Shown here piece by piece: positions 31,927 to 33,581 of a stretch of 35,003 nt of DNA. The notes below the pieces were generated by a model. The model was not told the origin of the DNA. It ran no database searches and saw nothing but the letters and a program-made list of their open reading frames with translations. The translations under genes and the position numbers were made by a program. This DNA comes from Pseudomonadota bacterium (GTDB lineage: Bacteria > Pseudomonadota > Alphaproteobacteria > SP197). The stretch is taken from positions 1 to 35,003 of the forward strand of contig JAQCLG010000019.1 in the NCBI GenBank assembly GCA_027592745.1. The letters run 5' to 3'. Position 1 is the first letter of the stretch. Every line of letters begins with the position of its first letter.

Positions 31927-32181
31927 ATGAACTCCGACAGCCAGGAGCCGGTGCTGCGCCACGGCGACCTGCTCTACGTCAATCCCTCGATCCCGCCGCG
32001 CCCCGGCGACGACGTGCTGATCGAGCTGGAGGGCGGCGAGGCCTACATCAAGCGCCTGCTGCGCCACTCGCCGCGCGAGGTCACCGTGCAGCAGTACAAT
32101 CCCGCCTGCGAACTCGTCTTCGACGCGACCGAGGTGCGCAACATCCATCTCGTCGTCGCGGTCATCAAGGTGCGGGTCTGA
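31927..32181 (+). pseudogene. 3' fragment of an S24 (LexA/CI-type) repressor-peptidase gene
   Basis: The 84-residue frame is the C-terminal S24 peptidase domain of a phage-type repressor: the catalytic Ser lies in SDSQEPVLRHGDLLYVN (normally S-M-x-P) and the catalytic Lys in EAYIKRLLRHSPREV; the end is ELVFDATEVRNIHLVVAVIK. A full protein would have an N-terminal helix-turn-helix domain and a cleavage site, both missing. Upstream of ATG 31927 the sequence belongs to the opposite-strand holin fragment, and there is no ribosome site. It is a truncated remnant; expression of a free domain cannot be excluded. Confidence 0.68.
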
Positions 32182-32214
32182 ACGTGCTGCAACATGCATG
32201 CAGGCAGGGATCGT

Positions 32215-32352
32215 CAGGCTGCAACGCATTGCGCGTCGCAGCCTGGAAGCGCGCGACCGCGCGCCGCGGCCAATGCCGCGATAGCCAAGCCTGCGGAGCA
32301 GGCGCCCGGCGCTTGAGGGCGCCCTTGTCGATCGATTTCGATCGACAAGGGC
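32215..32352. repeat. Compound palindrome array (BIME/REP-like)
   Basis: Six hairpins lie almost end to end: CAGGCTGC/GCAGCCTG (32215-32245, with inner ACGC/GCGT), GCGCGC/GCGCGC (32249-32264), CGCGGC/GCCGCG (32265-32280), GCCTGC/GCAGGC (32289-32303), GGCGCCC/GGGCGCC (32301-32323) and a perfect 15-base inverted repeat GCCCTTGTCGATCGA/TCGATCGACAAGGGC (32321-32352) with a TT centre. Neighbouring arms overlap by three bases, so alternative foldings compete. No coding signal. This resembles a dispersed extragenic palindromic element, or a structured RNA; copies elsewhere cannot be checked here. Confidence 0.75.
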
Positions 32353-32369
32353 AATAGGGTGGTCGCCCC

Positions 32370-33581
32370 ATGACGACACCGCTGCCCGTCTCCAACCGCG
32401 ATGCCCGCCGCCTGGTGCTTGCCCTGCAGGGCCTTGCCGAGCCGCGTCACCGCCGGCTCGACCGCCAGGGTCTCTACGATCTCATCTGGCGCCTGGGCTA
32501 CGTCCAGCTCGACAGCATCGCCACGGTCGAGCGCGCCCATCACCTCATCCTCTTCTCGCGCTACCGCACCTACCGCCCGCGCGATCTCGAACGGCTGCTG
32601 TCCCGCGACCGCCTGGTCTTCGAGCACTGGACCCATGACGCCTGCGTCATTCCCTCCTGCTGGTACCGCTACTGGCTTCCCCGCTTCGCCCGCCGCCGCA
32701 CCACCCTGATGGCCAACAACTGGTTCCGCGAGCGCATCGGCGAGGATGCCGAGGGCGTCATCGCCCGCGTGCGCGATCATGTCGCCGAAAACGGCCTGAC
32801 CCGCTCGCGCGAACTCTCCGCCGCCGAGGAGGATACCCGAAGCGGCCCGTGGTGGGGCTGGGGGCCGGCCAAGTCGGCGCTGGAATATCTCTGGCACACC
32901 GGCGAGATCGCCGTCGCCCGCCGCGACAACTTCCAGAAGATCTACGACATCGCCGAGCGTGTGATCCCCGCCGAACACCAAGGTCCCGCCGCCGACGAAC
33001 ACGAGGAGCGCGAATGGGCCTGCTCGGCCGCCCTCGACCGCCTTGGATTTGCCACCCAGGGCGAACTCGCCCGCTACTTCGACGCCTTCTCCCCCGATGT
33101 CGCCAGGCTGTGGATCGCCGAAAACCGCCATCGCCTGATGGCAGTCGAGATCGAGGGTGCGCCCGGCCGCAAGCCGCGCATGGCCTGGGCCTGGGCCGAC
33201 GTCGAGGAACGCCTCGCCGATGCACCGACGCCCCTTCCCGGCCTGCGCCTGCTGGCCCCCTTCGACCCCATCGTGCGCGACCGCAAGCGCGCCGAGCATC
33301 TCTTCGGCTTCGACTACCGCTTCGAGGCCTTCGTGCCTGCGCCCAAGCGCCAGTACGGCTACTACGTCCTGCCGATCCTGGAAGGCGACCGCCTGACCGG
33401 CCGCGCCGACCTCAAGACCGACCGCCAGGCCTCCACCCTCGCCCTGCAGGGCCTCTGGTGGGAGGCCGGCGTGAAATCCGGCGCCGGAAGGCGGGCAGCA
33501 CTTGCCGCCGAACTCGCACGTCTCGCCCGCTTCGTCGGCGTCGAACGTGTCCTCGACCGCTGCGGCGGACTCGAAGCCTGA
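32370..33581 (+). CDS. AlkX/YcaQ-like winged-helix DNA glycosylase
   Basis: A 403-residue protein of the winged-helix DNA-glycosylase family (HTH_42; YcaQ/AlkZ). The motif GYVQLDSIATVERAHH (about residues 46-61) contains Gln-Leu-Asp, matching the catalytic Q-hydrophobic-D of the E. coli AlkX/YcaQ group rather than the QxQ of Streptomyces AlkZ. Other conserved blocks are WTHDACVIP, GPAKSALEYLWHTGEI and LLAPFDPIVRDRKRAEHLFG. Such enzymes unhook bulky N7-alkyl adducts and interstrand crosslinks. ATG 32370 follows a purine-rich GGGTGG and comes 17 bases after a palindrome array. Confidence 0.87.
   Translation: MTTPLPVSNRDARRLVLALQGLAEPRHRRLDRQGLYDLIWRLGYVQLDSIATVERAHHLILFSRYRTYRPRDLERLLSRDRLVFEHWTHDACVIPSCWYRYWLPRFARRRTTLMANNWFRERIGEDAEGVIARVRDHVAENGLTRSRELSAAEEDTRSGPWWGWGPAKSALEYLWHTGEIAVARRDNFQKIYDIAERVIPAEHQGPAADEHEEREWACSAALDRLGFATQGELARYFDAFSPDVARLWIAENRHRLMAVEIEGAPGRKPRMAWAWADVEERLADAPTPLPGLRLLAPFDPIVRDRKRAEHLFGFDYRFEAFVPAPKRQYGYYVLPILEGDRLTGRADLKTDRQASTLALQGLWWEAGVKSGAGRRAALAAELARLARFVGVERVLDRCGGLEA

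Follow-up and report, generated by a model that had tools for sequence, protein, structure and literature searches.

The window, by which we mean the whole stretch of 35,003 nucleotides that was analysed (contig C108 of an alphaproteobacterial genome, G000), carries an array of hairpins in the spacer between an open reading frame resembling the S24 peptidases and the gene for an AlkZ-like DNA glycosylase. This array is a decayed copy of a dispersed, MITE-like and REP-related element, whose most likely limits, drawn from intact copies elsewhere, are 32212 and 32356 (145 bp). Its parts and neighbours are listed below, with a strand where one applies.

32212-32356, minus strand: whole decayed element, 145 bp, its length and putative ends set by comparison with intact copies.
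32352-32356, minus strand: decayed 5' terminal inverted repeat, reading TATTG on the minus strand for TACCA, with transitions only (alignment with intact copies).
32321-32352: hairpin A, with perfect 15-base arms (palindrome search and fold).
32284-32318, minus strand: conserved core, CCTCAAGCGCCGGGCG-CCTGC-TCC-GCAGG-CTTGGC, found class-wide (core pattern and covariance model).
32290-32302: hairpin B, the covarying stem of the core (stem covariation).
32265-32280: hairpin C (RNA folding).
32249-32264: hairpin D (RNA folding).
32214-32246: hairpin E, the outer hairpin at the 3' end of the element (palindrome search and RNA folding).
32212-32216, minus strand: decayed 3' terminal inverted repeat, reading TGACG on the minus strand for TGGTA, with transitions only (alignment with intact copies).
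32370-33581, plus strand: AlkZ-like DNA glycosylase gene (Pfam PF06224), downstream context outside the element.
31927-32181, plus strand: 84-amino-acid Peptidase_S24-like open reading frame (Pfam PF00717), upstream context outside the element, also in the sister species.

The ends of the window copy are placed from its relatives because its flanks, GAT and GGG, form no recognisable direct repeat, and because its terminal repeats match TACCA and TGGTA only when transitions are allowed. The interval of the original prediction, 32215-32352, takes in the array and misses these probable ends. The features that it described are nonetheless present: the minus-strand fold of the element region has six predicted hairpin loops, the last 32 bases (32321-32352) form a perfect palindrome with 15-base arms at 32321-32335 and 32338-32352 around a 2-base centre, 17 bases separate this palindrome from the ATG of the glycosylase gene at 32370, and the arms GGCGCCC/GGGCGCC (32301-32307 and 32317-32323), as read from the sequence, overlap the palindrome by three bases. 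RNA folding of the whole spacer (32182-32369) gave z-scores of -5.56 on the plus strand and -6.35 on the minus strand, against a baseline of 200 dinucleotide shuffles per strand, none of which folded as well on either strand. A single perfect 15-base arm is unexceptional in this GC-rich window, since 1 of 20 dinucleotide shuffles over its whole length also produced one; what exceeds chance is the hairpin array taken together with its homologous copies and their covariation.

A search of the genome for copies, as had originally been proposed, identified five further core-bearing copies, two by DNA search (C82 and C32) and three by pattern search (C256, C214 and C126), indicating that the array is multi-copy. 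Copies C82, C256 and C214 are 146 bp long and C32 is 138 bp long, while C126, at 75 bp, lacks the two outer hairpins. We did not count a match on C204 (L005), which lies inside an open reading frame resembling, by eye, a proline/aldehyde dehydrogenase, nor a match at L031 that resembles it by eye, and attribute both to GC-rich similarity.

Beyond this genome, matches to the array were found at E <= 0.001 in 15 of 61 genomes, its own included, some of them resembling chance matches in coding sequence. Genome G026, from another family, contains 14 matches with 80-84% identity to the window array, which lie at different sites and are near-identical to one another. The strict core pattern, CCTCAAGCGCCGGGCG followed by a hairpin and CTTGGC, was present in 19 of 385 genomes of the class, and a reversed control pattern in none. 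A covariance model of the core (R1), built from 98 sequences including the window copy, scores the core of that same copy at 57.4 bits (E 5.4e-21) and detected the core at E <= 0.01 in at least 98 of 289 genomes, many with one weak match and 23 with a best E below 1e-10; these counts are lower bounds, as at most 23 candidates were scored per genome, and the completeness filter placed G026 outside the survey. A scan of named genomes for the core returned at least 120 stretches, with titles seen for 80, and among the matches listed these include Azospirillum, Niveispirillum, Nitrospirillum, Roseomonas and relatives, Magnetospirillum and relatives, Erythrobacter and relatives, and Sphingobium. 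Judged by name, the taxon-named titles among the matches listed are alphaproteobacteria, with L099, L156 and L158 titled Proteobacteria only. Titles and taxonomy together place the core in families ranging from Sphingomonadaceae to Azospirillaceae and Acetobacteraceae. Plasmids of Niveispirillum, Sphingobium and Nitratireductor carry relatives of other copies; the window array itself has no match in either the phage or the plasmid collections, and we dropped an origin from either for this array.

The intact element has a defined unit length and defined ends. It is typically 144-148 bp long, and intact copies run from TACCA to TGGTA (or from a close variant to its complement) in the order terminal repeat TACCA, hairpin A, core with hairpin B, hairpins C, D and E, and terminal repeat TGGTA. 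Under an end rule that allowed 40-180 bp and demanded TNA on both sides, 26 elements had readable ends, of which 21 measure 144-148 bp and the other five 42, 70, 75, 159 and 172 bp. The 3-bp TNA flanks are identical on both sides in 21 of the 26, reverse-complementary in four and neither in one (P about 1.3e-7 for identity at a 0.3 chance of agreement, with the rule chosen after earlier looks at the copies). Because the flanks agree in N, a 3-base duplication is favoured over a bare TA duplication. Earlier scans with other end patterns had found both ends in 5 copies (3 with the same TNA) and in 17 copies (10 with the same TNA), and a loose end scan gave 112 rows, mostly chance, 14 with the same TNA, after which the rule was tightened. 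Its filter missed copy C32 (TCA/TCA), and the TNA count leaves outside the window copy, G026 C13 (TAA/AAA), a G005 copy (TTG/TAA), L177 (GAA/TAA) and L246 (TAA/CAA). Thirteen elements that we folded gave z-scores of -3.5 to -9.0, except for the short form C126, which folded no better than its shuffles (z 0.4). Dispersed copies, terminal inverted repeats and target site duplication, three of the features by which a MITE is recognised, are found in the element, the duplication being visible in the 21 elements with identical TNA and invisible in the window copy.

Some sequences depart from this unit. At L244 1504-1545 (G026:C2), a 42-bp solo hairpin carries the terminal repeats of the full element between the flanks TAA and TTA, and is possibly the smallest mobile form. 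A 172-bp TACCA-ended element at L073 2115-2286 (G057) has TTA on both sides, and the core pattern was not seen in it. Upstream of L025 1487 (G005:C20), another sequence with a TACCA start, beginning TTATACCAACGGTCATTG, has a different interior and abuts a hairpin element. We considered a larger transposon between two ends in G095:C9 and rejected it, as each end is part of its own short element.

A sister species of the same genus (G001) retains both the S24-like open reading frame and alkZ, the latter with 86% protein identity to the window gene, separated by 53 bases where the window has 188. The array could not be aligned to that spacer, which is too diverged for an insertion junction to be read, and at E <= 0.01 the core model found no copy at the other 12 alkZ loci, within flanks of about 1.5 kb each or as far as the contig reached. 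Among the genomes compared at alkZ, the array is private to its own genome; loss in G001 may also account for this. The original prediction had suggested that the place of the array next to a phage-remnant scar may be relevant. Because the S24-like open reading frame is also present in the array-less G001, the remnant is older than the array, or at least not tied to it, and this link is not supported. The open reading frame at 31927-32181, being common to the sister species, is no fresh scar.

The covariance analysis proposed in the original prediction indicates that the stems change in sequence while their pairing is retained. Using a search pattern in which the flanks were fixed and the stem was free, we obtained 109 distinct stems, and across six stem pairs 86.2% of the pairs are standard, compared with 46.0% after shuffling, a level that none of 500 shuffles reached. 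In 233 cells both partners differ, against 82 in shuffles, and sliding the partner by 1-3 columns gives a pairing of 27.8-46.2%. In a 98-stem alignment, from which 11 stems (several of them poorly paired) were excluded, pairing is as high as 92.5% and G-U as low as 1.5%. An alignment-free measure agrees, with a mean perfect outer stem of 4.5 bp compared with 0.71 bp for reshuffled halves (maximum of 1000, 1.04), and with at least four perfect outer pairs in 87 of the 109 stems and three or fewer in 22. The array is thus not a single-copy, unconserved sequence without compensatory changes. G-U accounts for 10 of 562 pairs in the 109 stems (1.8%), compared with 15.8% expected from column compositions. 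G-U pairs should be acceptable in an RNA whose fold is under selection; their scarcity suggests a palindrome kept as DNA and not as folded RNA, and favours either a DNA-level constraint or arm-to-arm copying in the stems.

Dispersed copies could also arise in the manner of REPs and REPINs, if a HUH (Y1/RAYT-like) enzyme mobilised the CCTC-tagged core hairpin itself in single-stranded form and the outer hairpins were gained in some lineages. Many core copies are indeed without TACCA ends, and in the 80 titled loci of at least 120, core pairs less than 400 bases apart comprise nine head-out, one head-in and nine direct. The head-out pairs resemble REPINs, five of them spanning 202-203 bp and the rest 208-248 bp; the window copy is single. 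A T-rich stretch lies 5' of the core in 23 copies from 22 loci, sphingomonad-like by title, and this flank, like the DNA-type covariation of the stems, is consistent with such an origin. However, a Y1 transposase was detected in 6 of the 20 genomes that carry the core and in 3 of the 9 that lack it (a thirtieth, G001, was left out of both groups), and G188, G209, G257, G274 and G283 carry the core with no Y1 match. Mobilisation by Y1/RAYT enzymes was dropped for this lack of association between Y1 transposases and the core. The TNA direct repeat also suits a staggered double-strand cut, unlike IS200/IS605 chemistry. Homologs of tnpA-Y1 are described as none or few per genome in Alphaproteobacteria in the available part of PMC6006769. 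We regard a REP- or REPIN-type origin of this kind as unlikely.

We also searched for transposases of other types. Duplication of TNA is a feature of IS5-family elements of the IS1031 type, and we found no support for mobilisation of an IS5 or IS4 type in searches for PF13340 and PF01609. PF13340 was found in G000 and G005 and absent from G001, G026, G058 and G095 (six genomes searched), and PF01609 was found in G095 and absent from G026 and G058 (three searched); neither of these families (DUF4096 and DDE_Tnp_1) was detected in G058 (97% complete) or G026 (77%). Eight PF13340/PF01609 loci, some of them cut by contig ends, showed no paired TACCA-type ends.

The genomic context of the copies bears on a possible function in RNA. 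With a simple codon-score gene finder applied to 128 copies, seven lie inside predicted genes and six are without a gene on one side. The 115 that could be classified lie between co-oriented genes in 76 cases (39 and 37 by core direction), convergent genes in 29 and divergent genes in 10, the last being below a simple 25% expectation (P 7e-6). The dispersed copies, so few of them inside genes, indicate that the original prediction was right in naming a dispersed extragenic palindrome among its options.

Another of its options, a structured RNA, can be considered alongside an element under selection in untranslated regions for its effect on mRNA stability or translation. Such selection would be in keeping with the strong predicted RNA folds and with placement just past stop codons, the median distance from an upstream gene pointing at the core being 18.5 nt (66 copies). 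The core also begins 10-12 nt past the 3' end of a tRNA gene in three loci (L110 3310-3321, L152 1431-1444 and L159 650-661), and in the Sphingobium plasmid records L312, and L313 and L314 (both about 1500-1575), it lies beside tRNA-Ile in the rRNA-operon spacer, between this tRNA and the 16S 3' end (the latter read by eye). In contrast, G-U pairs are rare even though they would preserve an RNA stem, the core takes both orientations relative to co-oriented genes, the alkZ site is not common to relatives, and the element has no Rfam match. Rfam gave nothing in the window at gathering score and nothing in four copy-bearing loci; in ten loci searched at E up to 1, one tRNA gene was above threshold and nothing was found at the searched core. 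Because G-U pairs are scarce and an Rfam match is lacking in the element, a structured RNA is disfavoured, and we consider selection on RNA very unlikely as an explanation; a cruciform or single-stranded DNA hairpin role is possible.

Two further observations concern neighbouring sequences. Sub-threshold Rfam matches were to Bp2_287 at L073 1969-2087 (34.1 bits against a cut-off of 70, E 0.00016), which just precedes the 172-bp TACCA-ended element, and to mir-6096 at L074. On a Niveispirillum cyanobacteriorum plasmid, a copy at L315 1501-1640 lies between two tryptophan halogenase genes and overlaps the last 19 annotated bases of the first.

That the array consists of GC-rich chance palindromes or is a terminator is scarcely credible, and both readings were dropped, for although a 15-base arm does arise in shuffles, the array has homologous copies, a conserved core, covariation and a common length, and its last stem is followed by no T tract, as had been pointed out when a normal terminator was originally doubted.

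The element has dispersed homologues of a common length, terminal repeats with an outer TNA repeat, and strong stem covariation, and it is absent from the site in the sister species. We conclude that the array is most likely an old minus-strand copy, now decayed, of a non-autonomous miniature transposable element. A transposase encoded elsewhere would recognise the ends, make a cut at TNA staggered by three bases and place the element between two genes; transitions would afterwards have eroded the ends of the window copy, and its direct repeat would have disappeared. The arms may be maintained at the DNA level, whether through a mobilising enzyme that recognises hairpins when extruded or single-stranded, or through template switching in replication, with one arm serving as the template for the other. 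An influence on alkZ expression, if there is one, would be secondary.

More speculatively, and with considerable doubt, the core might be a class-wide selfish DNA hairpin, spread by a not-yet-recognised enzyme that is neither Y1/RAYT nor of the IS4/IS5 type, occurring in two packages (the 145-bp TNA-duplicating unit and the inverted doublet of about 202 bp), and with stems rewritten in concert so that nearly all base pairs are free to change with Watson-Crick pairing preserved. A repeat so widespread in a large bacterial class, with copies next to rRNA, tRNA and metabolic genes, matters for how these genomes are annotated and how gene expression in them is studied. Its stems constitute a natural experiment, with free sequence, fixed complementarity and little G-U, and allow a direct test of whether perfect arms are maintained by selection through the enzyme or by copying of one arm from the other. 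The element is also one more example for the problem of what mobilises REP-like repeats in Alphaproteobacteria.

We compared the element with known repeats. No name for it was found among the open-access titles and abstract openings listed, and as subscription papers were mostly outside this scope, a name may exist. Like the REPs and REPINs described in PMC3116915 and the CGTC-tagged REPs of PMC3733652, as far as the available text of each extends, it is palindromic and extragenic, lies mainly between co-oriented or convergent genes, and in some of its core pairs resembles inverted doublets. The CGTC repeats of Alphaproteobacteria are likewise reported without an associated transposase in the available part of PMC3733652, with the tag changed to CCTC in many. 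They are described there as single stems of 8-9 bp with AT at the stem foot and a CCA-like tail, whereas the core studied here is about 35-44 bases long, has a conserved CGCCGGGCG and a CTTGGC end, and is packed in a larger array; it reads CCTCAAG...CTTGGC and so falls outside the CGTC-tagged REPs.

The CIRs of Caulobacter and Brucella, compared by their description in the available part of PMC2229807, are similarly intergenic and alphaproteobacterial, about 110 bp long and with separate inverted-repeat arms. CIRs carry a conserved GANTC at the loop, whereas GANTC occurs anywhere in 14 of 29 of our elements and not in the window copy; as these sites are not conserved, an involvement of GANTC and CcrM was dropped. 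Br-REP1 of Bradyrhizobium resembles the element in being a three-palindrome alphaproteobacterial repeat in 3' untranslated regions with one high-copy palindrome, as given in the available part of PMC5082802, while its consensus as printed there, CCGGAATCTCGAGATTCCGG, has no resemblance to our core.

Finally, in the available account of PMC2229807, the ERIC, RUP and Correia MITEs share with this element a length of about 100-200 bp, a non-coding and strongly base-paired sequence, terminal inverted repeats and a target duplication, as well as TA at both termini, here within TACCA...TGGTA. Our element differs from these MITEs in a direct repeat that is readable as TNA, in having five to six separate hairpins where they have one long stem, and in its class-wide core.
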